DNA of 64,000 nucleotides from Bryum argenteum (Eukaryota; Streptophyta; Bryopsida; Bryales; Bryaceae): positions 8,724,727 to 8,788,726 of the forward strand of contig CM073327.1 of the NCBI GenBank assembly GCA_037043015.1, given 5' to 3'. A model generated the notes under the pieces. It had not been told where the DNA came from and searched no databases. It saw only the letters and a list, made by a program, of their open reading frames with translations. Shown piece after piece: positions 1 through 50,800 of the stretch. The position numbers were made by a program, and so were the translations under genes. Position 1 is the stretch's first letter; the number at the start of each line of letters is the position of its first letter.

Positions 1-231
1 ATACAACGCTTGATGGTAATTGTTTGATACTTTTTCTTCGTTGATTTTGTTATGTTAGTGCTATGTACCATTTTGGAACAATTTTTTTTTAATACAATGA
101 GTACTTGTTTGTGAATAATGCAGGATTCTCAAGCGGTATCCCATAGCGTATACACCCTTTTGTTTCCGAACACGTTTCGCTTAGATGGTCCATGCCAACA
201 TTGCCATGCCAAGGAGCAGAACAATCCATAG
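1..231 (+). CDS. RWP-RK gene copy 0, 3' end only (runs off the left edge)
   Basis: Only the last bases of exon 3 (1-15) and the whole last exon (124-231, stop TAG 229-231) lie in the window. A GT donor at 16 and a TGCAG acceptor before 124 match the other family members. The last exon is 108 bp, as in every copy, and encodes the conserved tail ending LDGPCQHCHAKEQNNP. Exon 3 of the complete copies ends VQ(R/C)LM; here the preceding bases differ slightly. Whether the gene is intact cannot be judged because the DNA-binding exon lies outside the window. Assignment rests on clear sequence match to copy A at 6541-7673. Confidence 0.8.
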
Positions 232-3230
232 AACTTGAAGACTTTCAAACCACATTGTGATGAATTTCTTAGGCACTTGAAGTGGGTTTGAGGGGATAGT
301 TGAAACACTCTTGCTAGCGTTGTTGAAAGGATACGATAGGTCTCTTTGCACACATACACCAAACATGTTAGTGTGGTAATAGGAGCGGTGTAACAATGAG
401 ACTTTTGGAATTTGAACAAGTGCCATGGATTTGAATTTTATAATGTTTTTCGATCAAACTTTGAGTCCTATAAATCCTAATAATAATACATAGAATTTCA
501 ACAATTTAACTTGTAGAAATAGACGCATGACGACAATTATCACTTTAGGTGGTTCTACCGTAGAAGTAATATAATATGGATCACCTTTATGTTTAAATAT
601 GTGCGCTCATGCCGTACTACTAGAATTCAATTCAAATCAATAAGTCTTTTACAAGGACTTGAAACCAGGATTTGAAAGTACTTTAAATGGTGTGTGAGGA
701 AAAAAACACTAGTTGTCACTTTGAATAGTGATAGATTAAAAGCGTACTGGTTTGTCTTAATTTTAGCAATTTCTCGAATTCAATTATGTTGATGTTGAAG
801 AATTAGAGGTAAGAATTTTTTTTGACTTCCTTTCTAAACATGCACCTCATATTCTAAAGATATAATAATTGTTGTAAGTCATATGACAATTGCAAAGCAC
901 CCTTTGCTTGTGTCCAAGCATTTTCAAGTATGTGTGTTTCCAACATTTTCCAAGTTATTTATTGTTGGGGTTGGTGCATTGTTTGTGTGGAAACAATCAT
1001 TTCATCAACATCTCTAAATACATACTAATGAAGTTGATGTAATTATGTCTTGGAAAAACCCTTAAATGAAAAGTCTTGCCAATTACGATAGCCATCTTCA
1101 ATCTAGTGTACTTAACACTTTAGTGTGAAAATTGGACAATTAGGATGACGAATCAAAATTTTAAAGTGACTAAAATGATTTGGTAAAATTTAGGATGATT
1201 GCTCCCTTCCACAATCCACCTCCAACTCACATATGATGAATTATAACAACATGATTGTTATAATTAAGAACTATTCTACATCACAACTAGTTACTCATGT
1301 AAAGGAGCAACTAATGACATGATGCCTCTAAAGTTGGGATTATCTATAACCTCATATTACATCAACCTTCATGGAACATATAAAAAATGTCATGTAATTT
1401 CAATTCACTTAAAATGGCATCATGCCGTGTTCCATTTTTTCATACCAAAACTTGCATTTGCATGCGTAGGCAATCGTAAACTCAGTGATATCACACTTTT
1501 TTGTAAAATCACTCGTATTTGTACGATGTCAATCATATCATGTACAATCCCTTCCAAAATATGTAATGTCACGTGATATCTGGAGTGCCGTTTAGAAAAT
1601 TAAGGAGTACCGTTTAGAATATTAAAGAGTGTCGTTTAGAAAATTAAGGAGTACCGTTTAGAATATCAAAGAGTGTCGTTTAGAAAATAAGGGAGTACCG
1701 TCTAACCATACTAACGTGATATTTACGAAAGTGGGGTTTTTATTCAAAAATGTGAATCAATACATACAATTGAGTGCAATCATGAAGCTTGGTGACAGCT
1801 TTCATTATATAACAATCATGAGGTTAGGAGAATATTGCCATAAGGCCAATAATCTTGAGGAGGCTGGAAAAAACAATAGAAGTTACAAGACAATTCCTAT
1901 TCATGATATAAACTATCCTTTAGATATCGTATAGCAAACTTTTGCAATTGTCAAAATAACCTCCCGATAGTTTCACACCTTATAACCTCTATTTGAGAAT
2001 TTTACTCTAATTTCAATCATAAAGTAATGTGCCAAATTGATCTTTTAAGTCATGTTATTATATTTAAATTTTATTAATGCTGATATATTATTAATTATGG
2101 TATCTTAATATACAAAGTGGGAGAACATAGACTTTGAAAAACCCCCGATGAAAAATTCCAAATTTATTGAATTTTAGTAATTAAGGCAACAACTAAGATA
2201 GATGTGTGAAAAACTGATTGAAGATAGGAAACAATCATATTAGCTGCTCCTATTCAAATTTCCTTCCTAAACAATGCCTCAAAGCTATACAAAATAATTG
2301 GTTGCCTTACATTAATATCTTCAAATCACAAGAAGTTTTTGCTTCATATGACTACCACAACAAGAGAAGTAGAACAACATCAATCCCAGCACCAAATAGC
2401 ACCATGTACAATGGGGTACCAATCAAAACGTCGTTTTTGACTCTGCAGCCAGAAAAATTTCAGCACTGCCAACTTTGAAAGCCTCCTAAGAGCTCAAAAA
2501 CTGGTATTCTACCACAAAATTTTTAAAAAAGGTTTATCTTTAAGTTAATTACATGTATGCCAAATTTCAAGGCCAAAAGTTTCATTGAAAAAAAGTAATT
2601 CAAAATCTACCAACATTGGTAACTGCGGAATTGTTTTCACTGCTGCCAACTTTGACACCGTCCCAAAGATTGAATAAATTTTTTATGACCATGAAATTCT
2701 TGGACCAATAACCTCTTTAGGTTAAGAAGATATGAAAAAATATCCAAGGCCAAAAGATTAATACAAAAAAAGAAATCCACAATCTATCAACATGTGTAGT
2801 TGTGGGAAACAAATGGGGGAAAACATTTTGTTGCTACCAAATTTGACACCCTCCCCACGGTTGAGAGATTACTAAATAGCATCATTGTCAAGAATTGAGT
2901 ATGGCTAAGTCCATCTCCATCTAAGGGCCTAGAAATAACCAACTCTTTTACGTAAGAGTTAATCATGAACATACCGGTTCTTAAGATACAAACAAATTTA
3001 AAATTGAGAATCCTCATTGTCATTGTGCATTACTATTTAGAATTGGTATACAATATTTGTTAGGATAATTAAACAAATACACAAACTTCCTTGAATTCCA
3101 CCACAAAATAAACTCATAATACTTGCATGCAAAATACCCTATATATATTTTTTGATTGCACAGGCTAAATTCATATAATTTTGAAATGTCTATAGGTTCG
3201 TCATCCTACACTTTCAATATTCTATAAGCA
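232..3230 (+). repeat. Duplicated downstream flank of RWP-RK copy 0
   Basis: This gene-free AT-rich stretch aligns by eye with the regions following copies A (7674-9880), B (24580-26535, minus), C (30370-32378, minus), D (36240-38484, minus) and partly E (47832-48990). Shared landmarks include a stretch about 430 bases after the stop resembling the text around 7990. Short repeated phrases (AGTACCGTTTAGAA and variants) occur near 1580-1700. No coding exon or RNA gene is recognised. Homology runs continuously from the gene, so it was duplicated with it. Confidence 0.75.
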
Positions 3231-3331
3231 AAGTCATCATTGTTGGTGGTAGGATGCATTTGTAACAGCCTTAGGCTCCACCCGGGAACATTCCAAGCCC
3301 CCTCACCTCGAACTTGGTTTCAACCGTCCAC

Positions 3332-3499
3332 TCCAAGTGTATCAATGTCCCTTGGGAGGGTATCAATGTCACTGGGGAGGGTACCAGTGTCACTGGAGAG
3401 GGTATCAATGTCACTGGGGAGGGTATCAGTGTCACTGGGGAGGGTATCAGTGTCACTGGGGAGGGTATCAGTGTCACTGGGGAGGGTATCAATGTCACT
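3332..3499 (+). repeat. 21-bp minisatellite, 8 units
   Basis: Eight head-to-tail 21-bp units built on TATCAGTGTCACTGGGGAGG plus one base, with scattered substitutions and a more divergent first unit. The length is a multiple of three, so all frames stay open and create false ORFs such as repeats of VSLGRVS; there is no sign of real coding. It lies about 50 bp before the acceptor of a dead lipid phosphate phosphatase exon, at a duplication junction. The same satellite recurs at 24384-24488 and 36018-36164 on the other strand. Confidence 0.95.
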
Positions 3500-3550
3500 G
3501 TAGTGTGAACACCAGATTACAGTACCCTTCACCTCTGTTGTTTTCTGCAG

Positions 3551-3988
3551 GGCTGTTCATTGCTTACCTTTCCTACACGCAGTTCTACCCCAAGTATCTA
3601 CGCCAGAGAATGGGGTAAGCTCTTTATCTCTTTGAATTTTACATTCACAGAAGACCAAATCATTATGTTGTCTGAGCACAATAGAAGCTCTCTAGCTCTT
3701 GACATGTGAAGTTCTGTGGGCAGCGTTGTAGTAGTGGTTATATCATCATGCTTCAGTTTTCTTTGTTGTTTTTTTTCTTCCTCACTGAATTGAGTGTGCA
3801 ATTTTGTGTGCAGCTGGATATCCATATGAGTATCAGCCACAAGGAATCTCCAGGCACGGACAACACGGTCCTCACGCTCTACCGATGATGAACTCCCAAT
3901 TCAACAGCACGGTTGCTCCCTTGGGTCTCGGAAGAATGCATACGACCCGAGATATGTACCAAACGATATCGAGACAGGACGAGGCTAA
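3551..3988 (+). pseudogene. Lipid phosphate phosphatase pseudogene fragment (last two exons)
   Basis: Two segments match exons 6 and 7 of the complete gene at 41971-43942. Exon 6-like 3551-3614 is preceded by TTTTCTGCAG and followed by GTAAGC. Exon 7-like 3814-3988 encodes [10 protein letters not shown]. Exon 6 carries one extra C (a CCC run became CCCC), shifting the frame after QFYP. Exon 7 lost one A within the GLGGN segment, so the end is misread. The first five exons, with all three phosphatase motifs, are missing, and the minisatellite takes their place. A non-functional duplicate. Confidence 0.92.
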
Positions 3989-6420
3989 CAAGGGACTGTA
4001 GCTTTGAGTTTCTTTCCTTTGCTTTTGTGTATCATAGTTTCGGTTATGGAATTCAGGTGAATGATGTTTAATAATAACATAGTTTTTGGGATCACTTGGA
4101 ATGGATTTTGTTGCAGTGCCAATCAAGGTGAATAGGTTATTATGGTAATGTAAGGAGAATGGTTCCTGGACTTATCAACAAAAGATGAAGCTTCTTCAAT
4201 GAGATGTGTTGTGATTGCTTTCTGGGTGTTTCATTTTCTTTCTCTTTTTGTCATTTTTGTCAACAAAGAAACACATAAAGGGGGAAAGTGTTTTCACAAT
4301 TTGACAATTACTGTGGTGATGAAGGTTTCGGTCATCGTATTAAGGAGTCTTTAGTTCTCAGCAATGGCACTTACAGAATTCCATGTTAATTGTTATTTTC
4401 CTGAATGAAATTCATAATTTTGAAGAACACCGAAACTGTTGCCTTGGTTTACTCGAAGACGATTCCTTTGTATGCTGGATGTTGCCAACGAAAACCTTAA
4501 CAGTTCACTACATAGGAAAGGAATGAACACCTTTTTATGTGTATTAAAGCGATTGAATGTACTTGAAGTAGTGGCTCATAATATTTCAGTAGTAGATAGA
4601 AAAGACAAAGTTTTTTTTCGTGTTTTCACGTTGGTTATAAGGACTTTACTATAATAATTACAACTTTCACATGTGGCCAATATAGGTTAACCTATAACTG
4701 AACACCCTACATGGGCTATATTAGGATACCTGTAGGGTGATCAAATCTTTATTGAAACAATATAGTGACATGGACGCTTATGGGAGTGCCTTCCTGCATT
4801 TGCTCGTACCCTGGAGGAATTTTTTTCTTGGCAAAAAATCGCTCAAATCTTAGCTTTTTAAAATTTTCACAGTTCTAGGGTTTAGAATCGCTGGAAGAAT
4901 CGTTGTGACCGCTGGCTTTTGCCCCCACTCGATCTTCCATGATTGCCATCGGTGCCCACCATGCGAGTGGCCTTCACTCGCCATCTCATTAGACCAGTAG
5001 CGATTGAATAGCCTTTATCGTCCTGAGAACGTGCTAGCATCGCGAGAGTTCCCGATTAGTTTTTGCGTATGTCTCAATATTGGAAGTGTGAATGCATCTA
5101 GGTGTTTGACATTTGCTCCTATAACTGCTTTTGCCCAATGTTTGCTCTTTGAAGTATGACTACTTTTGCCTTTTTAAGTGAAACTTCCGTCATTTTGTAT
5201 GAAGCAGGTTTGAAACTCAGATGTTCATGTTTTCGAATGTGTTTGTGGAATGTGTTTGTGGAATGTTCATGATGAAACCCTAGTTTCACATGCTTGAATT
5301 TTAAAGTGGATTTGTCCATGAAATCAATGTAGTTAAATATGGGTACAATTTTCATAAAACTCGCCACATAAGCAATATTGAGTGTGGGAAGGTGCCACAC
5401 GAGTTACCATGCTTGCGTGGAAGGTGTCACAAAATTTCATCGTTCAACTTAGACGTGCAATAAATTAGTTGCCACCACGGTACAAAATAATTTGGGGTGG
5501 AAGCCACTATACATTAGGACCATTCAAACTGTTTCGCCAAAGTTACCTACACCGGCTCTTACTGTGTCGCGGCTCATGTCCCACAACAAATAGTAAAAAA
5601 AATTGTTGCTCGTAAAATAACTTAGTTTTAAATGAAGATTAGTGTTCAATGCACTTTTTACCTATTTAAATGGCTTCTAGGACTTTGAAGTAGCACTTTA
5701 CCAACAACCCATCCATAAAAGCATATAACCTTGACAACTGGTTGCAATTTACTACTACAAAATATCACTTCGAGAACAACCCATTCCTCAAAGTAATTCT
5801 GACAACTGGTTACAATCCACTTTTTTAAAATTACCCTCCTTTAATTAGTGGCTAAAAGTTGAAGGAGCCATCAAAGATTATCCTCATTAATTTATTTGTA
5901 AATTGTAACTGCTACCACATGACATGTTACAAGATTTGGTCCAGGAGAACAGAACGGTATGAAAGAGATTGTAAATCAGCAAGATATAAATCCTAAGAGC
6001 TCAATCAACCAACTTGTAGTCGATCCCAAATTTCGAGGAGTTGAAGAATACTAAAAGAATTTCTTTCTCTTTTTCTTTCTTTTTTTTTCTTCTACTTTTG
6101 GAAAGTTTGGTGAGTTAAGAACCACATTCAATTTATGGTACCTCGTTTGGATTTATAGATTGTTCACGAGAAGCTTTCAAACACGAACATTTCTTACAGT
6201 TGGTACCTAAAATTCATCTGTCGTTATGTGACACGTGGAAATCAAATAATTTCTACTTCAATAGCTGCTTGCTATCATCTTGCCCTCTTTATTACATGGG
6301 TACATTTTACCCTCCTTATTTAGAGTAGAGGCGTCCAAATTGAGCTCTTAGGAGTAAATTGTACTCGAGTACAAATTGTACTAGTGGTGTGTTCACACTA
6401 GGAGGTTGAAACTTGAGGGG
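3989..6420 (+). repeat. Duplicated flank between LPP fragment and RWP-RK copy A
   Basis: This matches, in opposite orientation, 27578-29693, 33645-35539 and 39601-41970. It contains the former 3' flank of the lipid phosphatase, a GC-richer patch near 4860-5060, then the region upstream of the RWP-RK gene with a pyrimidine tract at 6060-6095. No gene or RNA is recognised in the roughly 2.4 kb. Its boundaries follow those of the neighbouring duplicated genes. Confidence 0.7.
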
Positions 6421-6421
6421 G

Positions 6422-6430
6422 TTATATACC
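6422..6430 (+). promoter_or_regulatory. Probable TATA box of RWP-RK copy A
   Basis: TTATATACC lies about 115 bp before the ATG at 6541 within a block conserved in all copies (followed by GCTCTGT). The same TATATA is kept in copy D, but is altered in copies C and E. Assignment as the TATA box is inferred from position and conservation. Confidence 0.5.
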
Positions 6431-6540
6431 GCTCTGTTTGTGCGACATTGCGTATAGTTCCTTTCGTACTAGTTGTACTTGGTGGAGGAATGTTTGGTAC
6501 AGAATAGGTTTCGTTTTGTTTTGTAGTGTCGACAGTAGCT

Positions 6541-7673
6541 ATGGAGGATTTATACGATTACGTTAACATAGGTGAGCTTTTCTTCAATGCTCCAACTCTT
6601 GGCAGTTTATGGACCATCGCTCCAGAGGGCGCAACGATCTACGACGAAGACATCGGCGTCTATATCCAAGGTGATGATACGAAGGAGGATTGTGAAGAGC
6701 TTACGGTTGACAATGTTGTTGCAGTCGCTCGTCCGCACAAGGAGATTGTTAACACAAGCATCACGAAGGTGGATAAGCAGAATGTAGAACCGCCTGCAAA
6801 GGAAGTTCCTTCCCCTGTAGCGGCTCTTGAAGGTGTAGCGGCGCTCGAATTTGCTCCGAAGATGGCTCAACCGTATGCACCAATCATAGCACCGAAGATG
6901 GCTCCTACGCATGCGCAAGCGATGGCTCCTGTCAAAAGACTTGGCAGAAAAGTGAGTTTTTTTTCTTTTTCATTTTCGTACGCTCACGCTTTTCTAATTC
7001 GTTCCTTTTTCTTATGCTTCTAAATTATTGGTTTTACTGTATGTATACTAGCAACGTGGGAGGCGCACGCGATTGGTTCCTTTAACAATGTCGGACATAT
7101 GTCGATATTTTACGCTTAACCTATCTATCGCGGCTAGGAAGTTGGGCGTGTCGGCCTCGCACCTGAAGACAAGGATGAGAAAACTTGGCATTTGCCGTTG
7201 GCCTGGGCGTAAGGTTCTCTTCGCACCACAATCTTTTACTCGCAAAAGAAATTGCAAGTTTGTTCCTGTTGATATTTTATTTTTATTTTTTTCATACAGA
7301 TGCGAAGTCTGGAGAATGCAATGCATGCATTAGCGCACATGATTGCAGAAGGAGGAAGAGGATGTAAACTAGAGTACCTCACCAAACTCTGTGATGCACT
7401 CAAGAAAGACAAACAAGAGTACCTTGATGGTTCTCTTGCGGCTGTTCAATGCTTAATGGTAATTGTGTGAGACTTTCTCTTGGTTGATTTTGTTATGTTA
7501 GTGCTATGTACCATTTTGGAACAATTTTTTTTAATACTATGAGTGCTTGTTTGTGAATTATGCAGGTTTCTCAAGCGGTATCTCATAGCGTTTACACCCT
7601 TTTGTTTTCGAATAGGTTTCGCTTAGATGGTCCATGCCAACATTGCCATGCCAAAGAGCGGAACAATCCATAG
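6541..7673 (+). CDS. RWP-RK domain transcription factor, copy A (279 aa, intact)
   Basis: Four exons, all joined in phase 0: 6541-6951, 7052-7213, 7300-7458, 7566-7673. RWP-RK proteins are plant nuclear DNA-binding regulators; short ones with a lone domain are called RKD and act in germ cells and embryos. The domain fills exon 2 (about residues 145-191), with LTMSDICRYF, AARKLGVSASHLK and the signature RWPGRK. Residues 1-30 (MEDLYDYVNIGELFFN and on) are conserved among copies. Residues about 110-135 form an APKMAP repeat linker. Exon 3 looks helical and acidic/basic (MRSLENAMHALAHMI), and the tail is CQHCHAKE. The ATG is the first of the frame shared by all copies; a TTTGTAG just upstream could be the acceptor of a 5'UTR intron. 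No PB1 or NLP nitrate-response region is present, so RKD-like is the best class; gametophytic function is inference only. Confidence 0.9.
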
Positions 7674-9880
7674 AACTTGAAGACTTTTGAATCACATTGT
7701 GATGGATTTCTTATAGACTTCAAGTGGGTTTGAGGGGATAGTAGAAACAGTCTTACTAGCGTTGTAGAAAGGATATGAAAGGTCTTTTTTCACACATACA
7801 CCAATCATGTTGGTGTGCTAGTAGGAAGAATGTAACAATGAGACTTTTGGTAATGAGCAAGTGCCATGGATTTGGATTTTATAATACTTTCCAATCAAAC
7901 TTTGAGTCTAAATGGCTTCTATATGAAATATTTATATCACATGTTTCTTCATACATTGGAATGCTTTTGTTTTTGTACATGCTCATAGTAATACATAGAA
8001 TTTAAACAATTTAAGCTGTAGAAATTAGACACATCACCAAAGTTATCAGTTGAGGTGGTTCTACTATAGAAGTAACACAATATGGATCACCTTTATGTCT
8101 AAATATGTGTGTTCATGCTACATCATTGGAAATGGATTGAAATGAATACATCTTTTACAAGGATTCGAAACTAGGATTTGAAAGTACTTCTAAATGGTGT
8201 GTGAGGAAAAGAACACTCGTTGTGACTTTGAATAGTGAGAGATTAAGAGCGTACAAGTTTGTCTTAATTTTAGCAATTTCTCGAATTCAATTATGTTGAT
8301 ATTGAAGAATAGTGGTAAGAAATTTTTTTGACTTCCTCTCCAAACATTCACCTCATATCTTAAAGATGTAAGATTTGTTGTAAGTCATATGACAATCGCA
8401 AAGCACCCTTTGCTTGTGTTTAAATATTTTCAAGTATGTACGTTTCCAACATTTTCAAACTTATGTATAGTTAGGTTGGGTGCATTGATTGTGTGGAAAC
8501 AATTATTTCATCAACATCTCTAGATACATACTAATGAAGTTGATGTAATTATGTCTTGGAAAAACCCTTAAATGAAAATTCTTGCCAAGTATAATAGCCA
8601 TCTTCATTCTAGTGTACTTAACACTTTAGTGTGAAAATTGGTCAATTAGGATGACAAATCTAAATTTTAAAGTAACTAAAATAATTTTGATAAAATTTAG
8701 GATGATTGCTCTTTTCCACAATCCACCTCCAATTGACATATGATGAATAATGACAACATGGTTGTTATAATTAAGAACTATTCTACATCACAACTAGTTA
8801 TTCATGAAAATGAGCAACTAATGAGTAATGACATGATGCCTCTAAAGTTGGGATTATCTATAACCTCACATTAAATCAGCCTTCACGGAACATATTAAAT
8901 AATGTCACGAAAATTCAATTCCGTTAAAATGGCAACATGCCATGTTCCATTTTTCACACCAAAACTTGCATTTGCATGCCTAGGCAATCGCAAACTCAGA
9001 GATGTTACACTTTTTTGTAAAATCACTCGTATTTGTACAATGTTAATCATACCATGTACAGTTCCTTCCAAATTATGTAATGTCACGTGGTATCTCGAGT
9101 ACCGTTAGAAAATTAAGGAGTACCATTTAGAAAATCAACGAGTAGAGTACCGTTTTTAAGATTAAGGAGTACCGTTAACCATAGTAACGTGATATTAATG
9201 GAAGTGAGGTTTTATTCAAAAGTGTGAATTAATACATACAATTGAGTGTAATGAAGCTTGGTGACAACTTTCATTATATACCGATCATGAGGTCTTTAGG
9301 AGAAAATCATCATAAGGCCAATAATCTTGAGAAGGCTGGAAAAAACCTGAGAAATTACACAACAATCCCTATTCCTAATATAGATTATTCTTTAGAATAT
9401 TGTACAGCAAACTTTTGCAATTATCAAAATAACCTCCCTATAGTTTCACACCTTATAACCTCTATTTAAGAATTTGTACTCTAAATTCAATCATAAAATA
9501 ATTTAATCAGATTGATTCTTCAAGTCATGTTATTATATTAAAATTTTATTAATGTTGATATATTATCTATTATGGTATCTTGATATTCAAAGTGGGAGAC
9601 AATAGGCTTTCAAAAACCCCTGGTGAAGACTTCCAAATTTATTGAATATTAGTAATTGAGGCAAGAACTAAGATAGATGTGTGAAAAACTGATTGAAAAT
9701 CTTATTAGCTCCTCCTATTCAAATTCATTTCTAAACAATGCCCTCAAAGCTATACAAAAGAATTGGTTGCCTTACATTAATATCTTCAAATCACAAGATT
9801 TTTTTTGATTCTAACTATGACTACCACAACAAGAGAAGTAAAACAACATCAATCCTAACACCACATAGCACCATGTACAT
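7674..9880 (+). repeat. Duplicated downstream flank of RWP-RK copy A
   Basis: AT-rich, gene-free; aligns throughout with 232-2400 in the same orientation and with the minus-strand flanks of copies B, C and D. Similarity includes the ATTAAGGAGTACCGTTTAGAA phrases near 9100-9180. Similarity to the copy 0 flank fades after about 9880; the minisatellite and lipid phosphatase exons that follow copy 0 are absent here. No coding potential recognised. Confidence 0.72.
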
Positions 9881-10717: not shown

Positions 10718-10722
10718 AGATG
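10718..10722. repeat. Target site duplication of Copia element (left)
   Basis: AGATG directly precedes the LTR start at 10723 and is repeated as AGATG at 17061-17065 just after the other LTR. A 5-bp duplication is usual for LTR retrotransposon integrases. Confidence 0.95.
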
Positions 10723-10949
10723 TGTTGAAGATGCAATTGAAAGCAAGGAGATTACAAAGTAAGCACCAAGAAGATAGACACAAAAGAGAGAGTCTTAGAT
10801 TGTGGGAAAGAGTATATGGAGGTACAAGGAGAGAGAAGATGAATAGTACTTCTCTCTCATAGGTCTAAAGTAGTGGAGGTATCTTACACTAGTGACTCAT
10901 CTAGCTAGAATACAAAGGAGAGCGTATGTGAGAATATTAATTCTCAACA
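10723..10949 (-). repeat. Copia 3' LTR (relative to coding strand)
   Basis: On the minus strand it begins TGTTGAGAATT and ends TTCAACA, giving the expected TG...CA ends within a short inverted repeat (TGTTGA/TCAACA). No difference from the LTR at 16834-17060 was found in a line-by-line comparison. 227 bp is short but within the Copia range. Confidence 0.95.
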
Positions 10950-11038
10950 CTCCTCCTCGCTCGACGAGGTATTATAATATAAGGTAACGCAGTGAACTGA
11001 TACAAATACGGCTAAATGCCGATGATAGTCGCCAAGTC

Positions 11039-11110
11039 GTGGACTTGGTCGACTGGATAAAACGTCGGTGGTTAACCGACCGGTCCGAGGTTCGATTCGC
11101 GATGGCCTTG
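11039..11110 (+). other. tRNA-Asn-like sequence inside the Copia element
   Basis: Read on the plus strand, opposite to the element. An A-box-like TGGTCGACTGG (11046-11056) is followed by a perfect 5-bp stem GTCGG/CCGAC enclosing the 7-base loop TGGTTAA (11064-11080), with GTT at the anticodon position. A B-box-like GGTTCGATTCG lies at 11089-11099. The T stem and acceptor stem do not pair, and the base before the anticodon is G instead of U, so it is not a functional tRNA. It may be a tRNA-derived remnant (SINE-like) captured between pol and the 3' LTR, or chance. Confidence 0.35.
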
Positions 11111-11425
11111 TCGACTGGTCGGGGAAACTCGCGGCTTGGCATGCTAGTGAGGCAGGAATAACCAGTCGGCCCAATCACCTACCTAAACCGTGACAAGATG
11201 CAAAGCACCCCAAGATGGCTAACAGACTCCATGCATGGAATCAGAAATTGCGGTTCTCACCACGACCCACCTTTTATTTGTTGCCTCATTAAAACCTTAT
11301 TTGCGAAAAACCTTGATGATGATCAAGGGAAAAAACACAAATGAAGGAAAAAGAGTACAGCTAACTTCATCAACTTTTCTCATGGTAAAACCCATTGGGA
11401 AAAATCCAGAGAAGAGTATCAAAAG

Positions 11426-15008: not shown

Positions 15009-15010
15009 CT

Positions 15011-17060: not shown

Positions 17061-17109
17061 AGATGCATTTGAGTACAAAGGGTCTCATTTTAAACATCTT
17101 TACCTCTTC

Positions 17110-24488: not shown

Positions 24489-24579
24489 GTGGACGGTTGA
24501 AAACAAGTTCGAGGTGAGGGGGCTTGGAATGTTCCCCGCAAGGGCCTTAGACTGCTACAAATATATCCTACCAAAATGA

Positions 24580-35966: not shown

Positions 35967-36017
35967 CTGCAGAAAACAACAGAGGTGAAGGGTACTGTAA
36001 TCTGGTGTTCATACTAC

Positions 36018-36164
36018 AGTGACATTGATACCCTCCCCATTGACAGTAATACCCTCCCCAGTGACACTGTTACCCTCCCCAATGACAGTGATACCCTCTC
36101 CAGTGACACTGATACCCTCCCCAGTGACAATGATACCCTCTCAAGGGACGTTGATACACTTGGA
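36018..36164 (-). repeat. 21-bp minisatellite, 7 units
   Basis: Seven 21-bp units of the AGTGACACTGATACCCTCCCC type (plus strand), more variable than those at 3332-3499. Located at the junction between the copy D downstream flank and the lipid phosphatase fragment. Confidence 0.95.
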
Positions 36165-36239
36165 GTGGACGGTTGAAACCAAGTTCGAAGTGATGGGGCT
36201 TGGAATGTTCCCGGCAAGTGCCTGAGGCTGCTACAAATG

Positions 36240-39600: not shown

Positions 39601-39711
39601 AGCTACCGTCGACACTACAAAACAAAACAAAACCTATTCTGCACCGAACATTCCTTCACCAAGTACAACTAGTAAGAAAGGAACTATACACAACGTCGCA
39701 CAGACAGAGCG

Positions 39712-39720
39712 GTATATAAC
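39712..39720 (-). promoter_or_regulatory. Probable TATA box of RWP-RK copy D
   Basis: Minus-strand GTTATATACC about 113 bp before the ATG, the same sequence and spacing as in copy A. Confidence 0.5.
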
Positions 39721-40045
39721 CCCCTCAAGTTACAACCTCCACGTGTCAACACACCACCGGTTCAATTTGTACTCGAGTACAATCTACTCCGAAGAGCTCA
39801 ATTTGGACGCCTCTACTCTAAATAAGGAGGGTAAAATGTACACATGTAATAAAGGGGGCAAGATGATAGCAAGCAGCTTTTGAAGTAGAAATTATTTGTT
39901 TTCCACGAGTCACATAATGTCAAATTAATTTTAGGTACCAACTCTAAGAAATTTTCATGTTTGGAAGCTTATCGTGAACAATCTATAGATCCAAACGAGG
40001 TTCTGTAAATTGGATGTGGTTCTTAACTCACCAAACTTTCGGGAG

Positions 40046-40091
<46 letters not shown>
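40046..40091 (+). repeat. Homopolymer A run (46 bp)
   Basis: Uninterrupted A run in the copy D upstream region, where copy A has a mixed pyrimidine tract on the corresponding strand. Length may be unreliable in sequencing. Confidence 0.9.
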
Positions 40092-40092
<1 letters not shown>

Positions 40093-41970
40093 AAACTTCT
40101 TTTAGTATCCTTCAACTCCTCGAAATTTGGGATCGACTATAAGTTGGTTGATTGAGCTCTTAGGATTTATATCTTGCTGATTTACAATCTCTTTCATACC
40201 GTTCTGTTCTCCTGGACCAAATCTTGTAACATGTCATGTGGTAGCAGTTACAATTTACAAATAAATTAATGAGGATGATCTTTGATGTCTCCTTACAATT
40301 TACTACTACAAAATATCACTTCACGAACATCCCATTGCTCAAAGTAATCGTGACAACTGGTTACAATCCACTCTTCTAAGATTACCCTCCTTTAGTGGCT
40401 AAAAGTTGAACCAGTTGTCAAGATTGTATGCTTTTATGGATGGGATATTGGTAAAGTGATATTTCAGAGTCCTAGAAGGCATTTAAATAGGTAAAAAGTG
40501 CATTGAACACTAATCTTCATTTAAAACTAAGTTATTGTACGAGTACTGATTTTTTTACGATTTGTTGTGGGGCGTGAGCCGCGACACTGTAAGAGCCAGT
40601 GTAGGTAACTTTGGCGAAACGGTTTGAGTGGTCCTAATGTATAGTGGCTTCCATCCCAAATTATATTGTACCGTGGTGGCAACTAATGATGAAATTTTGT
40701 GGCACCTTCCACGCAAACATGGTAGCTCGTGTGGCACCTTCCCACACTCAATACTGCTCTTGTGGCAACTTTTATGAAAATTGTACTCATATTCAACTAC
40801 ATTCATGGACAAATCCACTCTAAAATTCAAACACATGAAACTAGGATTTCATCATGAACAGTCCACAAAAACATTTGAAAACACGAACATCTGCATAATT
40901 CAAACCTGCTTCACACAAAATGACAAAAGTTTCACACAAAATGGCAAAAGTAGTCATACTTCAAAGAACAAACATTGGGCAGAAGCAGCCATAAGAGCAA
41001 ACGTCAAACCCCCGGAAGCGTTCACACTTCCAATATTGAGATTGACACAAAAACTAATCGGGGACTCTTGCGATGCCAACGGGTTCTCGGGATGATAAAG
41101 GCTACTCAATCGTTGCTAGTCTAATGAGATGGAGAGCGAAGGCCAGTGCAGGGTGTGCGCCGATGGCGATGGAGGAAGATGGAGTGGAGGCGAAAGCCAG
41201 CAGCCACCAGTTCTTTCGGCCATTCTAAACCCTATAACCGTGAAATTTTAAAAGGGGCAGGTCGTCTTGTCCCAGGCATGGTAAGATTTGAGCGATTTTT
41301 TGCCAAGAGAAAAATTCTTGGGTACGAGTACATGAAGGCAGGCACTCGTTGGCAAGATCCAGCATACAAAAGGAACTTCTTCGAGTAAACCAAGGCAACA
41401 ATTTTGGTGTACTTCAAAAGTGTGAATTGAATTCAGGAAAATAACAATTAACATGGAATTTTGTAAGGCGCAAAACTTCAATTGAAAATCAAGACCCCTA
41501 AATAAGATGACCGAAACCTTCATCACCACAGCAGTTGTCAAATTGTGACAACAGTGTTTCCCATTATGTATTTCCTTGTTGAAAGAGAAAAAGTCATGAA
41601 CAGTACCCTATTCAAATGTCATGAACTCCTCCATACGAATGGAATGGATAACATGTGTAGCATTAAATTACACCTCCACCAGCACACAAAAATGACAAAA
41701 AGAGAATGAAAATGAAATACCCAGAAAGCAGTCACAACACATCGCGTTACAGAAACGTCATCTTCTGTTAATTAGTCCAGGAACCATTCTCCTTACATAA
41801 CCATAATAACCTATTCACCTTAATTGGCACTGCATCAAAATCTATGCCAAGTGATCCATCCCCAAAACTATGTTATTGAACATCATTCACCTGAATTCTA
41901 TAACCGAAACTATGATACACAAAAGGAAAGGAAAAAACTCAAAAAACTCAAAAAAAGCGGCAGTCCCTCG

Positions 41971-43942
41971 TTAGCCTCGTCCTGTCTCGACATCGTTCGG
42001 TACGTATCTCGGGTCGTATGCATTTCCTCCGAGACCCAAGGGAGCAACCGTGTTGTTGAATTGGGAGTGCATCATCGGTAGGGCGTGAGGACCGTGTTGT
42101 CCGTGGGCGAAGATTCCTTGTGGCTGGTACTCATATGGATATCCAGCTACACACAAAATTGCACACAAAACTCAGTGGGGAGAAAGAAAAAAACAAAGGA
42201 AACTGAAGCATGATGATTGTGCTCAGACTACATAATGAAGTGGTCTACTGTAAATGTAAAATTCAGAGAGATAGAAAGCTTACCCCATTCTCTGGCGTAG
42301 ATACTTGGGTAGAACTGCCTGTAGGAAAGGTAAGCAATGAACAGCCCTGCAGAACACACAAGAGTATATTACAAACCTGACGTATTTACAAAATGTCATG
42401 ATCAGGAACAGTTCAAACTTGAGCTCAAGTTACTGACGAATCTCTCTTCATCAACCACGAATCTGAGAGTCATGGTGGTTGAAGGCCGTAAACCATTACA
42501 TGAATCATTCTGTGGACTTACTCATTAGAAAGAAAAGAATAGCAATTTTTTATGGTTGATAATGCTTGTCTTCTGTGGAGGATGAGGGTGAGGAGAAGGG
42601 CTTACCAAGAAGGGCTGCGGCAATGATATCCACCCAACGGTGCTGGTAGTCGTTCACACGAGAGATGCCGATGAGAGTGGCCACGAATGTCGGGAACAGG
42701 ACGAAGAACACTCGTGAAGCGTACGCCCTTCGGTCGAACATGGACGTCTTCCCGGCTAAGTAGAGTGACAGGTATCCCAGACCAGCAAATGCCCCTGTCA
42801 TCAATCCATTTCAGCCAAGTCAGTCTCACTTCTAGTTGGTAGAAGGAAAAAAGCCAAGAAGACGAACTCCAGACCTGTTTCTTTTGAAGGCTAACATGAA
42901 TCGAAGGTTCCTATGCTCATTTGACAGGACATTCTATTATTCCAGTAATACCAACCCCTCTACGATACGGAAGCAACCATCTACTCCAAGGAATCATTTC
43001 ATATCTATTCTAGCTGTTTGTGCTCAAGGAACAGTATGACAACAGAGGACACTGCACTATTTTCAGTAAGATTAAGGATGGACACTATACTAATCAGGTA
43101 ATCACTTACATGCTACATGTCCACTGGGGAAGCTCTTGAACGCATCACGAAACTGCCTCTTCGACACATTCGGATGGCAGATCACTTGCCTGTCGGAGTC
43201 GTTCGTGTAGGTCTATCAAATAAAAAACACTCATTAGATTCACAAGATGATTGTCAAATCACGGACAACAACAGAGGGTTTCTTGGGGAGTTTCAATACC
43301 GCGACGCCATCAGGAAAGCATCGATGGAAAAAATCAGGTCGAGGCATCCCGACCAGATTCTTGATACCGTCTGTGAAAAGTGCTGTGACCACAATCGCCA
43401 TTGCAAGCCCTGAAACACGATCCCCAAGAATCATCAAACCATTCATCAAACGACCGTAAAAAAGAAATTCGGAGTAATGTTGGATACTGGTCCCTTTGCG
43501 GACAGTATATATATGCGGATGTGAGCTTACCAAGGAAGGCGCTGTGGAAGTCACGGATGCTTCGCTTCTTGAAGTACATGGCGAGGAAGATGAGGAATGG
43601 AATGAGTACAGCAATGACTCCGACGCTCCATGTGGGCACAGTCTCGCCTTTGTGGGGGAACCGGTAGTTGGCCATCATCGGCTCATTCACGAAGCGTTTG
43701 AACGGGGGGATCAAGAAGTAGTCCACGAGCTCCAGGATGATCATCACGCCGACCCATAGCCAGTCGCGCAAGTGGTGCTTGACTAGTGAGATTAGCGTCA
43801 CTTTGTGTGCGCTTGTGTCGTAGCCTCCGTTCGCGTGGTGCCTCCCAGCTGCAAGCATTCACCGGATCCCCGTTAAGATCGAGCAAAGAGTGATTGATTG
43901 ATTATTTGGTGTCGCAGGATTCGAGTGCTTACCGTGATCCAT
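41971..43942 (-). CDS. Lipid phosphate phosphatase (PAP2 family), 322 aa
   Basis: Removes phosphate from phosphatidic acid and related lipid phosphates in membranes. Seven exons: 43942-43933, 43848-43531, 43409-43300, 43212-43110, 42794-42606, 42346-42284, 42146-41971, all with GT-AG borders and consistent phases. The three phosphatase motifs are complete: KNLVGMPRP (126-134), PSGH (175-178) and [12 protein letters not shown] (225-236). Six membrane segments are expected (for example about 28-48, 74-94, 111-122, 182-195, 208-224, 237-255). The tail is [10 protein letters not shown], ending VETGRG. The first exon has only ten coding bases (ATG GAT CAC G). Close in plan to Arabidopsis LPP2/LPP3. 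It is the source of the truncated copies at 3551, 29694 and 35540. Confidence 0.95.
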
Positions 43943-46344
43943 TTTGATCGCCGCAAACTGCTAGAGCTTCAAACCCTGACTTCGCGGCTGCACCCAATCT
44001 GCAAGAAAGAAGACCACTCACGAGGTTAACAATCCATCCATAGCCAATGAGCATATTAGACTCTATGTTACTAGCACGAAAGACCTGAAACCCCAGCCAC
44101 CGACTGCCACTCCTCTCAGGAAGAAAACAACGGCTTTCAAGCTCTAATAACTACAACGACAACCTTCATGGTTTCAAAAGCCAGCCGTTTCTATTTCGTA
44201 CAATACCAGCAACGAGAACGGATCCTATGAAGCTTATAAGGAGTCTTGGTAACCTTGTGTTTCTGATCCCGAAATGTGTCTCAGTTTTAACTCAATCGTG
44301 CTTCTAGTCGCAAAAAGCCAGAGTCACCCCCAGTCCTATCAATCCAGAGTGTGGAGTTCCCGATCTACGGCTAGGCGCCATGGCCATGGTGATCAGACTG
44401 TATGTTCCGAGCACCGAAAAAAACTGCGAACTCCAGCCACCTCTCATAAACCCAAATCTCGTGGATTCCAAGAGAGAGCCGTTTTGATACCGTACCTCAA
44501 AAATACTATCAAACTCATACAGTTTCCGAAATAATTCTCGTATTCACCCAATCATCACGCTTTCAGAAACAAAAAGCCATCGATCGGCCAGTCCTTTGTA
44601 GTCGTAGATAGAGCTCACGATCTAGGGCCAGGCACCATAGCCATCGATCGAAACGAGCCATCTCAGTGTATGTTCCGACTGAGCACAAAAAAAATCTGAA
44701 ACTCTAGCCACCTCACAGGAAGAAAAACTACGACCCCACCTTCCAACAAGTGTGCCATACTCTTCGCCACTCAACAACAAGAACGTATACTAACACTCTC
44801 ATGTAAAAGGCGAGATTACCAGCCCATTGAACCGTTTCCATGTAAAGAGCTCATGATCTACCATATCCATCCCCACCCAACAACAAGAAAAATATCCTAC
44901 CAAGCCCATGAAGCATCAAACAGTAGTCTTGGTTACCAGCAACGACCAGCCCAGTAAACGAGCGCTCGTATTTTCATGGAACGACCTTTTATCATACAGT
45001 CGATTCTCCATGAAAAACCAAAGCCTTCATCACTCACGAACGAAAAAAAATGCTTGTGCGACATCAATCAGACCTGAAGGCGACCGAGGTTACCAGTAGC
45101 CCGTGGTTTCATGGAAAGGGCTCTATCTGTTCGGGGAGGCGGTGGATTTTCATGCTCAGTGTCGCAAAATGAGCCAGAAACAGGCCTGCTCAAAGAACAA
45201 AAGCACAAAAGAGAGTTGCATGAGCTTACCCGGGAGCTGCGAGAGAGCTTGCGAGACAACTACAGGCTCATGAAGCGGGAGACGATCATAAGCAAGGGCG
45301 ACTGCAAAAGGTGCCGTAATGACAATGGCATTCAGGCAGCATGATAAAGGATGCCAAGTGTCCGAGTCCTTCGGCCGCCGTTCCCCGTCCCTTGTTCCCA
45401 TGCCGCGAGCCCGCGTCCAACGGTCGGTCGATGCCAGGTGTCAGGTGTAAGACACGTGGACTTCGCCACTTGGCCAGCGCGTTCCCTGGGGAGGCCTTTT
45501 CTAAATGGCAGCGGGGAGGTTCGATCCGAGAACCTGCGCGGCCTGTCGGCGGAATCATCTCCCATTTGGATGAAAATCATCCTCGTTGCTGCTATGGTCT
45601 CTGAATTATTTTCGATCACCGCCAAGCTTAGGTTCATTTTGTGATAATTTAATAAATAAATAAATAAACGTTACAAACACCAATCCTCTTAATGGGGTTA
45701 GTGTTGATGAATTACATGTTCAAGTTACCTTTGATGATATGCCCACACGACATGTAAAAAAAAAAAAAAAAAATGAAACAAAATTCTACCTCTGTCTAAA
45801 TTTTTGATATCTGAATAAAGGACTAGTTTTAAATACAAAAAAAATAATTTAATTTGGATCTTTCTTGTTACACCAAATGTTGCATTTTTTATAACATCTT
45901 CCAATGTAGAAAAAAGTGGAAACTACAATTCATGTACAAGTTGGTGTATCGTTACAAAAACAACATTGTGATTAAATACTTCGGAATTTTCAAGAACTTG
46001 GCCTCCCTACACAAAACAGTAATTTACACCCATTGATACTGGCCCCTCATAGGAGTATAAGAGTATATTTATTTATTTAAAACTTGTTGATGTCAAAAGG
46101 CATAAGTATGATTATCCAAATTATCATCCATGTACTTTTCTGTTCATCCATCCCTGCCTAAATTCGAACAACCGCTACATAAGACTCGGTTTAAACTTAA
46201 GTGCCTGTATAGCTGCTTTCAGAATCCCAGTTGTTACAGCACCCAATGAATTCATGTGGCTGAAACTGACAGCTGGAATGTAGGAGAAAATGATAAGTTA
46301 CTTAAGAGGCTCTTATAATTTGTATAATAGATTTGGGTGACTGT
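43943..46344. other. 5' flank of the LPP gene; degenerate tandem repeats, no gene recognised
   Basis: The promoter and 5'UTR of the lipid phosphatase must lie here. Segments near 44085, 44345-44440 and 44600-44712 share ordered phrases (GATCT..GG..AGGC.CCAT, TGTATGTTCCGA, AGCCACCTC), suggesting a degenerate repeat of about 270 bp. A GC-rich block at 45360-45600 includes AGGTTCGATCCGAGAACCT, a small hairpin with a B-box-like loop. From 45640 the DNA is AT-rich. Open stretches such as 45111-45344 have no recognised homology. Confidence 0.5.
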
Positions 46345-46626
46345 TTCTAACAGTTGGTACCTAAAATCCATTTGTAATTGTGACACGTGGAAAACAAAAA
46401 AAATTCTACTTCAAAAGCTGCTTGCTATCATATTACATGGGAGCATTTTTACCCTCCTTAGTTAGAGTAGAGAAAAATTGTACCGTAGTAAAGGTGTGTT
46501 CACACTTGAGCGCGTTATGTACCGCTCTGTCTGTGCGTTAGAGTTCCTTTCGTACTATTTGTACCTGGTGAAGGAATGTTCGGTACAGAATAGGTTTTGT
46601 TTTGTTTTGTAGTGTCGACGGTAGCT

Positions 46627-47831
46627 ATGGAGGTTTTAGACGATTACGTTAACATAGGTGAGCTTTTTTTCAATGCTCCAACTCTTGGGAGTTTGTGGAC
46701 GATGACTACGGAGGGCGCGTCGATCTTTCCCGAAGACATTGGCGTGTGTGCCCAAGGTGGTGATGCTGTGAACCGGGTTTGTGAAGAGCTTGACAATGTT
46801 GCACTCGCTCTTCCGCTCGCGGAGATTATCAACACGAAGGACGTTTCGATAGCATGTTTGTCTCGAAATGCGAGTGTCGTTTCACATGGCGTCGCCTTTG
46901 TAAGTGCGTCTCCGATTGCTAAGGTGGATAAGAAGAATGTAGAACTACCCGCAAAGAAAGTTCCTTCCCCTCTGGCAGGTCTTGAACGTCCCGCAAGTTA
47001 CTCGCTCGAATTGGCTCCGGAGACGGCTCCCCTCTATGCACCAAACATAGCACCGAAGATGGCTCCTACACATACGCAAGCGATGGATCCTGTCAAACGA
47101 CTTCGCAAAAACGTGAGTTTTTTTCTTTTTCATTTTTGTAAGCTCATGCTTTTTTAATTTGTTATTTTTTGTTCCGCCTACTAACTTTTTTGTGTTATTG
47201 CATGTATACTAGGGACGTGGGAGGCGAAGGCGATTGGTTCCTTTAACAGTGTCGGACATATCTCGTTATTTTACGCTAAACCTATTTATAGCGACTAGGA
47301 AGTTGGGTGTGTCCGCTTCCCACCTCAAGACAACGATGAGGGAACTTGGCATCCCGCGTTGGCCTGGGCGTAAGGTTCTCCTCGCACCACAATCTCGTTA
47401 AAGATTTTAATTGCAGGGTTTGTTCGTATTCATATTTTTTATTTGTTTTTCATACAAATGCGAAGTCTAGAGAATGCAGTGCATGCCTTAGCGCACATGA
47501 TTGCAGAAGGAGGAAGAGGACATAAACTAGAGTACCTCACCAAACTCTCTGACGCACTCAAGAAAGACAAACAAGATTACCTTGATGGTTCTCTTGCGGC
47601 TGTTCAACGCTTGATGGTAAGTGTGTGATACTTCCACTTGGTTGATTTTGTTATGTTAGTGCTCTGTACCATTTTGGAACAAAAACATTTAATACTACGA
47701 GTGTTTGTTTGTGAATAATGCAGGTTTCTCAAGCGGTATCTCATAGCGTATACACCCTTTTGTTTTCGAACGGGTTTCACTTAGATGGTCCATGCCGACA
47801 TTGCCATGCCAAGGAGCGGAACAATCCATAG
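46627..47831 (+). CDS. RWP-RK domain gene, copy E (exon 3 acceptor mutated)
   Basis: Exons by homology: 46627-47112, 47213-47374, 47458-47616, 47724-47831 (stop TAG), all in phase 0 (about 304 aa if spliced as in the other copies). The start is MEVLDDYVNIGELFFN; the linker has APNIAPKMAP repeats; the domain at about 170-216 reads LTVSDISRYF, ATRKLGVSASHLK, GIPRWPGRK. It is the most divergent copy. The acceptor before exon 3, CATACAG in copy A, is CATACAA here (47457), so canonical splicing is lost. The next AG upstream (47415-47416) would put a stop in frame. A protein ending after the RWP-RK domain, or a retained intron, is likely. The TATA position reads TTATGTACC. Duplicated DNA begins near 46345. 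Confidence 0.8.
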
Positions 47832-50800
47832 AACTTGTGAGCCACATTGTGATGGATTTCTTAGGCACTTCAAGTGGGGTTGAGGGGATAGTTGAAACAC
47901 TCTTGCTAGCGTTGTAAAGAAGATACGAAAGGTTTCTTTGCACATATATATACCAATGATGTTGGTGTGGTAATAGGAAGGGTGTAATAGTGAGACTTTT
48001 GGAATGTGAACAAGTGCCATGGATTTGGATTTTACAATGTTTTCCCATCAAACTTTCGGTCTAAATGGCTTCTATTTAAAATATTTATATCACATGTTTT
48101 TTGGAATGCTTTTGTTTTTGTACATCCGTCATAGTAATACATAGAATTTCAACAATTTAAGTCGTAGAAAATAGACACATAACCACAGTTATCACTTTAG
48201 GTGGTTCTACCAAAGAAGTAATATATAATATGGATCACCTTGATGTCTAGATGTGTGTGTTCATGCTACAACATTGGAAACTGATTAGAATTGATGAATG
48301 TTTTAGGACTTGAACTTAGATTTGAAAGTACCTCTAAAATGTTTGTGAGGAAAAGAACACTCCTTGTCACGTCGAATAGTGAGAGATGAAGACTGTACTT
48401 GTATGTCCTAATTTTAGCAATTTCTTGAATTCAATTATTTTGATATTGAAGAATTAGAGGTAAAAAAAATTTGACTTCGATTCCAAACATGAACCTCATA
48501 TTCTAAAGATATAAGAATTGTTGTAAGTCTTTGCTTGTGTCACTAACACCCTTTGCTTGTGTCCAAACATCTTTAGGTATGTATGTTTCCAACATTTTAA
48601 AAGTTAATTATTGTTAGAGTTGGTGCATTGTTTATGTGGAAACAATTATTTCATCAACATCTCTATATAAAGTTGATGTAATTATGTCTTGGCAAAACAC
48701 TTAGGTGAAAATTCTTGCCAAATATGATAGCCATCTTGGTTTTAGAATACTCAACCCTTTGACGTTTTACTGTGAAAATTGGTCAATTTGGATGATAAAT
48801 AAAATATTTAAAAGTCATGTCTTCTTTACGGATTCTTCTTTTTACCAAAGTCTTGTGAAATGGGATATTAAACAAGTTTACTTTGTGATAAAAAGTACGC
48901 TTCAATCCACTAGGATATAAATTTATGTCATGCATTCATGCACTTTATGGGACATGAGGAATATATCTCAATCCTATATTGCAAATCAAGGAAATGTTAT
49001 TTTCATGAATTTAATTTTTAATATATTCTACATATGTGTAATATATAAATGTCGTTCAACAACTTTCGTGTTGAAATCCTTTTGAAATCCATTTGGTTTT
49101 AGATTTCCAACAACTCCTGTGTGATGACTAAACAACTTTAACACATACATGAAAAATGTGCGTTCGACACTGCAATTTACACTTGCAAAGAGAGCTAAAA
49201 GACTTGTTATAGAGGAACATGCGAGCGTTTGTGATTTATAGCTTTTGTGTTTTTTTTCTTTTCTGTATCATTATTTGAAAATTTTGCATATTGGCGATGT
49301 AGTAGGTGTTCTATTATTTACTGTTTATACCTTTTGCACTATTTTAAAATTGTTATTTGAATGTTATGCATACTAGCCACATATAAAAGACCAAACAAAT
49401 GGCCAATGTACACACTTTTGTAGATTTGTAATTCTAAGTAATAAGAACCTTATAACCCTAAATTTATTCAATTATATCATTTGCAAATACTTTGTTATGG
49501 TATTGAATAATTGAGAATTAAGTGACTCACTTTTGTTTATACTTATGACACTTTAAAGTAAAAATTTAAGCCAACAAGTCCCACAACTTGTAGGGGGTTC
49601 AAGGTAATAGGCAACCATAACCAACTACCATAAACCTTTGCCTAATTTGAAGTTTTGAAAGTAAAGATACATGTTCTTCAAAAATTTGAGCTTATGATGA
49701 GCATTAGGTCCCAATAACACTCCTGCTTTGCAAGATAAATTTGTTCCATATATGATTCATATAGTAATTTCATGTATATTTAGATAAGAGAGTTAAACTC
49801 ATCAATATTTATATAGAAGACCTTACCTCAACTTATTATTCCCAGAATTTTCAAGAAAACAAAGTATATAAGTTGTCCCTAAAGATTAATAGTGCAAAAT
49901 ATTATATAAGGTTAATAACATCAACTACTCTATTCTTAAAATTTTCATATGATATAGTACTTGATGATTTTACTATTTAAATCTAAATTTTATAAATTTA
50001 AGAAAATATATTAGAAATATCACTTTACTTCTAGAAAATTATACTTTTAGAAATATCTAATGCTATAAATATCTTAAATACAACGTGTGTCATTCTGATT
50101 ATGAAAATTGAAGATATGACAAGGTTGTACTTCACATTGTATTTTGCTATATACAAAAGCGTTATACAAAACGTACCAATCGTCTCTTGTAACCATTGCT
50201 CAATCGTAAGAGTCATTGGTTATGGGTGCTTCTATCTTTGGAGGCACACCAATTTTCATGGAATTAAAATTATTATAATTAGTTTTAGATTTATGTGGAC
50301 TTTCTTATCATATACAAAAGTAATAATTTTTAATACTAACCAATGTTAGGAGAATGTAATGAGGGTAATGGTAAGAGGAATAAATTTAAACGTTCGCTTA
50401 TGTATATACTTCTTTATACTTGCAATACAAATTATTCATAGAATACAACATGTTATGAACCTTATATAACCTCTATTGATCATAATGGGTAGGGTAGTTC
50501 CAAATTTTATTTGTTAAAAGTATAAAAGATAAATCTTAAGAAGGGTTTCAAGTCTAGTATGACAATAATACTCAAAATATAATAACATTTGTCATGTTGT
50601 GTACGAAGTATTTTACAAGATTATTTTTAACTCGTTAAATGGTCGATTAGAAACTTTGAAGGAATGCCACGTTTATACTATAAAAAGATCTTAAAATAAT
50701 ATCACATTGAACAAATCTTTGGTCAATTGGCTATCAAGTGCAATTTTAAATCTTCATTTGAGTGTGTTGCTTACTTCTAATAGCATTCGAACAGATAAGA

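Follow-up and report, generated by a model that had tools for sequence, protein, structure and literature searches.

In green plants, factors carrying an RWP-RK domain determine the identity of egg cells and mating types, and usually there are few of them: ordinary land plants have about 10–40 RWP-RK genes, and at least 100 MYB and AP2 genes. The RKD subfamily includes Arabidopsis RKD1–5 and Marchantia MpRKD; the NLP (NIN-like) proteins share the domain. Here we analyse 64,000 nt of the moss Bryum argenteum (assembly GCA_037043015.1, contig CM073327.1, positions 8,724,727–8,788,726 of the forward strand; this whole stretch is called the window), in which six copies of an RWP-RK gene lie in duplicated units. 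The window is likely one cluster within an expansion of RKD-type RWP-RK genes by birth and death across the genome of this moss, and the gene products are probably gametophyte or reproductive regulators.

Several described systems bear on this reading. Published counts of RWP-RK genes are 14 for Arabidopsis, 37 for wheat and 101 for Chrysanthemum lavandulifolium (PMC10105424). The Chrysanthemum expansion, with 32 lineage-specific members according to the same source, resembles that in Bryum in its tandem duplication, but it concerns a seed plant with 101 genes, whereas in this moss 259 Mb contain no fewer than 133 domain matches. The U chromosome of Ceratodon purpureus carries RWP-RK (PMC8000587), and a reference title names a mating-type factor of RWP-RK type in Closterium. 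The Bryum genes are like these factors in being divergent RWP-RK genes of the haploid phase; unlike them, they have matches spread over ten contigs.

The six copies, A to F, lie where a sequence-only reading of the window had placed them. Copies B (6541–7673, plus strand; exons 6541–6951, 7052–7213, 7300–7458 and 7566–7673), D (32379–33644, minus strand; exons 33644–33105, 33003–32842, 32753–32595 and 32486–32379) and E (38485–39600, minus strand; exons 39600–39220, 39118–38957, 38858–38700 and 38592–38485) give full open models of 279, 322 and 269 aa, respectively, in which every intron is bounded by GT and AG. In an alignment of the six copies, each of B to F has an exon 2 of 162 nt, an exon 3 of 159 nt and an exon 4 of 108 nt, the lengths that the earlier reading had given, and A has the same lengths when its left flank is added. 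Intron 2 begins with GTTCTC in all six. Exon 1 varies (411, 540, 381 and 486 nt in B, D, E and F), with every length a multiple of 3, and the introns carry many 1-nt indels. Chance is excluded as the source of the six-copy pattern.

The other three copies carry different lesions, and the coexistence of intact, truncated and splice-damaged copies noted in the sequence-only reading is confirmed. Copy C (26536–27577, minus strand; exons 2–4 at 27162–27001, 26912–26754 and 26643–26536) is without its promoter side and the 5′ part of exon 1, because its alignments to B in a self-BLAST of the window end at B position 6095 and restart at 6638. Copy F (46627–47831, plus strand; exons 46627–47112, 47213–47374, 47458–47616 and 47724–47831) has an open frame and a broken exon 3 acceptor, with ATACAA in place of the AG. 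Only the 3′ end of copy A lies in the window (1–231, plus strand; the last 15 nt of exon 3 at 1–15 and exon 4 at 124–231); the remainder (L144) was recovered from 1,827 bp of left flank and includes a 536-nt exon 1 with stops inside.

By profile search, B and D belong to the RWP-RK superfamily (Pfam PF02042, 56.1 and 57.3 bits against a cut-off of 29.3), and the six window domains score between 48.0 and 58.1 bits. In a whole-protein Pfam scan, which covered B and D, RWP-RK was the sole domain above its own cut-off. These two copies have the RKD build, a short protein with one RWP-RK domain and neither GAF nor PB1; NLP identity is rejected since neither a GAF-like nor a PB1 domain rises above cut-off in them, although the RWP-RK domain itself is common to NLPs. 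The stretch that follows the RWPxRK signature, MRSLENAM in the window genes, also resembles the MKSLDSLI of the canonical RKD of this genome. The architecture of the window genes fits the description ‘RKD-like’ given by the sequence-only reading, and their place in segmental tandem duplications is borne out by self-BLAST. Unlike the RKD subfamily elsewhere, they occur in very large copy number.

The genes sit in units of about 6 kb, repeated at 74–89% identity, in which the promoter side and the 3′ flank are duplicated along with the gene, as the earlier reading had proposed for the flanks. From self-BLAST, with a search of upstream sequence for B, the unit around B spans 2868–8673 (plus strand), C, D and E form three head-to-tail units of about 6 kb each at 24384–42364 (minus strand), and the unit of F spans 46344–48966 in the orientation of A and B (plus strand), so that the order runs A and B plus, C, D and E minus, F plus. 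A 21-bp tandem repeat, of the type CAGTGACACTGATACCCTCCC in the minus-strand units, occupies the outer part of units at 3339–3500, 24384–24481 and 36017–36157. The sequence-only reading had named a single-copy region as an outcome that would overturn it, and an assembly artefact of collapsed or duplicated haplotypes is the corresponding alternative. The identities and the different lesions do not match one collapsed locus; the copies differ by 11–26%, and moss gametophytes are haploid, which counts against a haplotype artefact. We reject this alternative, in favour of which nothing was found, on copy identity and lesions and give it next to no probability.

Divergence along the units is uneven. 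Between D and E, divergence is 2.8–6.7% in the three 250-bp windows that reach from the end of exon 1 as far as exon 4, against 10.4–33.6% in the upstream region and exon 1 (20.7% for exon 1) and 8.9–19.0% downstream; the pair of B and C shows about 4% between exon 1 and the beginning of exon 3, and 9–15% beyond these limits. This mosaic suggests gene conversion among the copies, by which they would exchange sequence after duplication at the DNA level.

Could a mobile element have carried or given rise to these genes and spread them through the genome? The RWP-RK subfamilies are dispersed over many chromosomes, a 530-bp piece within the unit (window approximately 5072–5602) and weaker pieces are interspersed repeats, and two dispersed copies, L004 and L008, have about 1.4 kb in common that ends about 50 bp behind the domain. 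However, when 2.2 kb upstream of B was searched in the genome, the longest matches among the best 40 of 163 candidates scored were the other copies of the cluster, with about 200 bp recurring beside a ninth relative (C4:7.09 Mb; contigs are written C1, C2 and so on). The units contain no open reading frame (ORF) longer than 121 aa besides the RWP-RK exons and frames opposite them, the ORFs having been taken without a profile scan; terminal repeats and target-site duplications were not searched for. Introns are kept, on which ground retroposition is rejected for the window copies, and a transposon spreading the whole unit is unsupported, the interspersed parts being only the 530-bp piece and a weaker one. 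A mobile origin is very unlikely in our estimate. We favour tandem and segmental duplication of the ordinary kind, with later divergence and loss, because unit DNA is mostly confined to the cluster and because, in a comparison of 12 pairs from other subfamilies, the blocks in common measured up to 3 kb. Kept introns, units of about 6 kb and mixed orientation show that duplication took place at the DNA level.

The cluster is one part of a much larger family. The assembly has 258.8 Mb in 25 contigs, and a Pfam profile search found at least 133 RWP-RK domain matches, 129 of them above cut-off (best 150 of 182 candidates scored). The same search gave at least 91 matches for Myb_DNA-binding, often two per gene (best 150 of 184 candidates scored), and 74 for AP2, 70 above cut-off (all 104 candidates scored); all three figures count domain pieces instead of genes, and the families are unequally affected by introns within a domain, which occur in many MYB genes. 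The ‘local expansion’ of the sequence-only reading therefore describes a real cluster at too small a scope. The search for further members that it had proposed also yielded two relatives of the window copies in the domain tree and the ninth relative at C4:7.09 Mb, which was found by an exon 3 search and contains a stop. RWP-RK matches lie on ten contigs (C1–C5 and C7–C11), and 89 of 133 are within 50 kb of another, paired domains in one gene included; in 200 within-contig shuffles the number was 10 on average and never above 24.

Distribution among contigs is also skewed. C7–C10 hold 80 of the 133 RWP-RK matches, against 28 of 91 for Myb (Fisher p = 2 × 10⁻⁵) and 18 of 74 for AP2. The largest contig, C1, holds a single RWP-RK match where 22.7 would be expected from its length; since AP2 (0 of 74) and Myb (5 of 91) are scarce there as well, this scarcity is a property of C1 and not of RWP-RK. 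The canonical RKD lies at 43.4 Mb on C1 (44.1 Mb), close to the end of this contig, which is a candidate for a sex chromosome. C6 was dropped as a gene-poor chromosome: it has no RWP-RK and no Myb match but five AP2 matches.

In the open-access literature on RWP-RK and RKD, the matches listed included no moss RWP-RK expansion and no moss copy number, and TAPscan v4 states that an earlier study saw no RWP-RK gain or expansion. We did not find the expansion in print: the family is known, but its size here, the degenerate RWPxRK signatures, the shifted intron and a two-domain form described below appear to be new.

Conserved members are few and, named by eye, comprise three NLP-type domains (C2:7.09, C3:4.87 and C9:13.35 Mb), the canonical RKD L001 (C1:43.4 Mb, signature RWPHRK) and a second pair of RKDs, L002 and L003, whose domains differ by 22 nucleotides and no amino acid over 45 codons. 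The window genes evolve faster at the protein level than this pair. L001 bears a miR159/319-like site, which departs from the target at 2 positions. Near the window copies no such site was found within 5 mismatches, so that a regulatory trait of RKDs, though not a strictly defining one, is lacking. Its absence does not set the window genes apart from the L002/L003 class, because 3.1 kb of L002 and L003 also contain no site within 6 mismatches. In liverwort RKDs a miR159/319 site near the 3′ end has been demonstrated, and such a site is predicted in an RKD of a fern and in an RWP-RK mRNA of P. patens (PMC5426797). L001 is in any case a different gene on another chromosome, from which the window copies differ in intron position as well as in the missing site.

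This intron position is the best evidence on the origin of the expansion. The window genes have an intron directly after RWPxRK, and a donor GT stands at this place in 105 of 126 domains with a W, L002 and L003 included; seven rows lack a W and were left out, and a few of the 21 domains without the donor were judged by a W other than that of RWPxRK. The donor is absent from canonical RKD L001 and from the three NLPs. By this common intron site we infer that the expansion derives from the second RKD class, L002/L003. The exon behind the domain is likewise common to other subfamilies, because 8 of 10 weaker exon 3 matches (E = 1.5 × 10⁻⁴ to 0.008) lie 86–224 bp behind listed domains of those subfamilies.

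A tree of 120 of the 133 domains (those of at least 35 aa, 46 columns) shows about 15 subfamilies by eye. The six window domains and those at C2:19.63 and C9:11.95 form one group of eight with support 93, so the copies are not old unrelated genes, the other outcome that the sequence-only reading had held to tell against it. Further out, the window copies sit among 49 weakly resolved rows, which include three of RKD and one of NLP type.

Are the copies kept by selection? In a codon model, with kappa under the null of omega (the ratio of non-synonymous to synonymous rates, dN/dS) equal to 1 chosen as the best among a few values, exons 2–4 (142 codons) of the intact B, D and E give omega 0.22 (twice the log-likelihood difference, 2ΔlnL, 18.8). 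Copies B–F give 0.36 (2ΔlnL 17.7), and 0.37 (2ΔlnL 21.8) with the outside relative L030, which was used without its exon 4; exon 2 alone gives 0.27 (p = 1 × 10⁻⁴) and exons 3–4 alone give 0.50 (p = 0.04) in B–F. Exons 2–4 are under purifying selection, weaker than that on the conserved L002/L003 pair. The DNA-binding part is kept as coding sequence, and exon 1 drifts in sequence yet holds the frame, because its omega is near 1 while its lengths stay multiples of 3. Across 11 expanded subfamilies, with rows containing stops and identical rows left out, domain omega ranges from 0.11 to 0.86, and seven reject omega 1 at p < 0.01.

Several results weigh against an expansion of working genes descended from the second RKD class. 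Among the six window copies, gene models show B, D and E alone to be intact. Exon 1 omega is not significantly below 1 (0.87 in B, D, E and F; 0.82 with L030), dN/dS of exons 3–4 reaches at least 0.85 in 6 of 10 pairs among B–F, and exon 2 of D and E does so too, with few changes in each case. Four of the 11 subfamilies do not reject omega 1 (S4 0.76, S6 0.69, S7 0.71, S9 0.86). Tree resolution is poor, with 63 of 114 inner branches open, and the proposed L002/L003 origin rests mainly on the intron site. Finally, the mobile-element test of the unit was made on one subfamily.

The first of these points, along with the damage in A, C and F, lends some weight to an alternative in which the family consists mostly of dead or drifting duplicates, tandem copies decaying neutrally while only a few RKDs and NLPs work. 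Stops in 10 of the 133 domains, and omega values not below 1 in exon 1 and in the four subfamilies, point the same way. Against it stand the low omega of exons 2–4 in B, D and E, the seven subfamilies that reject neutrality with stop-containing rows left out, and the in-frame exon 1 lengths of B, D, E and F; moreover, 108 of 133 domains are free of stops and have 40 aa or more, although matches of this sort are favoured by Pfam scoring. Widespread decay of this kind strikes us as unlikely.

Birth and death of functional genes, the reading that we prefer, would lead to short nuclear DNA-binding regulators with an N-terminal exon under loose constraint, an RWP-RK domain resembling a helix-turn-helix and, at the C terminus, a helical exon. 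A single-sequence fold of exon 2 has two helices at a mean pLDDT (predicted local distance difference test score) of 69.6. Foldseek with this model returned no PDB match at E ≤ 0.001, and the weak top rows were bacterial DNA-binding domains at E ≥ 1.5; a sequence search of solved structures gave three matches at E = 0.29–0.32, none meaningful. The model supports a helix-turn-helix weakly. By analogy with other RKDs, the expanded genes would probably work in gametophyte or reproductive cells with diverged targets, and a reproductive function is plausible.

How the domains change was followed in 43 close pairs with no row in common. Changes avoid the core residues F10, L35, W40 and P41 and are frequent at positions 13, 15, 25–27, 30, 33, 34 and 38, several of which belong to helix 2 of the exon 2 model; variability at helix 2 may allow DNA-binding specificity to change. 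The KRAB zinc-finger families of vertebrates are clustered, fast-growing DNA-binding regulators, and the Bryum genes, whose domain is unrelated to zinc fingers, are similar, by analogy of working only, in forming a clustered, expanding family of DNA-binding regulators. An arms race of this kind, in which the copies track fast-changing transposons or selfish or sex-linked elements in the gametophyte, would agree with the large copy number and with positions 25–27, 30, 33 and 34 of helix 2 and position 38 being among the most variable while the core is kept. It would also agree with exon 1 as the fastest part of the gene (20.7% between D and E, omega 0.82–0.87), set beside the control pair L002/L003 with 0 amino-acid and 22 silent changes. 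Yet positive selection is rejected, no omega above 1 having been found in any of the 11 subfamilies or in exon 1, and exposed positions vary in most domains. We regard an arms race as quite unlikely.

Some members appear to have a second domain. At 8 of 13 places with an S4 domain, an S3 domain follows on the same strand 156–933 bp further on; these S4–S3-type pairs, in the same order and strand, lie at C9:8.247, 8.261, 8.266, 8.302 and 8.599 Mb, C4:15.713, C7:9.221 and C10:5.099. The pair is likely one gene with two RWP-RK domains, because the gap leaves little room for a first exon (L010 and L015), and the arrangement looks new. Pairs from a single subfamily also occur: two S4 domains at C9:8.314 with a spacing of 572 bp, and two S9 domains at C4:21.263 with a spacing of 612 bp.

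Other features of the window lie between and beyond the units. A Copia-type long terminal repeat retrotransposon (10722–17060) is a young insertion between B and C; its 228-bp repeats are 100% identical, and it contains a pol-like frame of 1099 aa and a gag match that is weak and below cut-off. An inverted repeat has 627-bp arms (51523–52149 and 52901–53527) that are 99% identical and about 750 bp apart, with parts 68% related to 17088–17353. Unrelated genes, named by eye as DHHC-type palmitoyltransferase-like (21.5–22.4 kb) and lipid phosphate phosphatase-like (42.5–43.9 kb, between the E and F units), gave no Pfam match as single frames, and an LSF/SEX4-like dual-specificity phosphatase at 55.4–57.2 kb has a DSPc match below cut-off. 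Rfam gave no matches in the window at gathering scores, and an odd ‘tRNA-Stop’ called by ARAGORN at 25161–25243 was taken as spurious.

Elsewhere in the assembly, eight AP2 matches form a tandem cluster of about 140 kb (C7:9624139–9764715) less than 1 Mb from the window. Mitochondrial cox1 occurs in five open pieces inside a chromosome-sized contig (C4:5371557–5379459), which may be a mitochondrial insertion or a scaffolding join. The plastid contig C12 (114.6 kb, with short repeated pieces near its end and part of it reading N) is shorter than the 123–125 kb given for four published mosses. Its psaB has 8htu, 6l35 and 7ksq, which we take to be Physcomitrium photosystem I, as best PDB matches, with 12 differences in 734. 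No ORF of at least 90 aa was found for ccsA between ndhD and rpl21/ndhF in this contig (part N; gene names by eye); a missing plastid ccsA is a moss trait. The chromosome set, 44.1 to 16.8 Mb plus 6.99 Mb (ten of eleven large contigs), is close to that of Ulota crispa, reported as 11 chromosomes of 41.4 to 15.8 plus 6.3 Mb with a GC content of 37–37.5% (PMC11803377). Taken together, chromosome set, plastid genes and the cox1 pieces bear out the assignment to the bryopsid mosses.

In its boldest form, which we hold to be unlikely as a whole, the expansion would have made RWP-RK the largest or among the largest transcription factor families of this moss, the second RKD class giving rise to about 15 subfamilies and the S4–S3 form, with the products serving as arms-race-like regulators of the haploid phase with changing DNA-binding faces. 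If true, a family outgrowing MYB and AP2 would offer a natural test of why and how a family of developmental regulators explodes in the haploid phase, and of whether selection follows DNA-binding specificity or dosage, for which the same genome supplies internal controls in the RKD with its miR159/319-like site, the protein-frozen RKD pair and the three NLPs.

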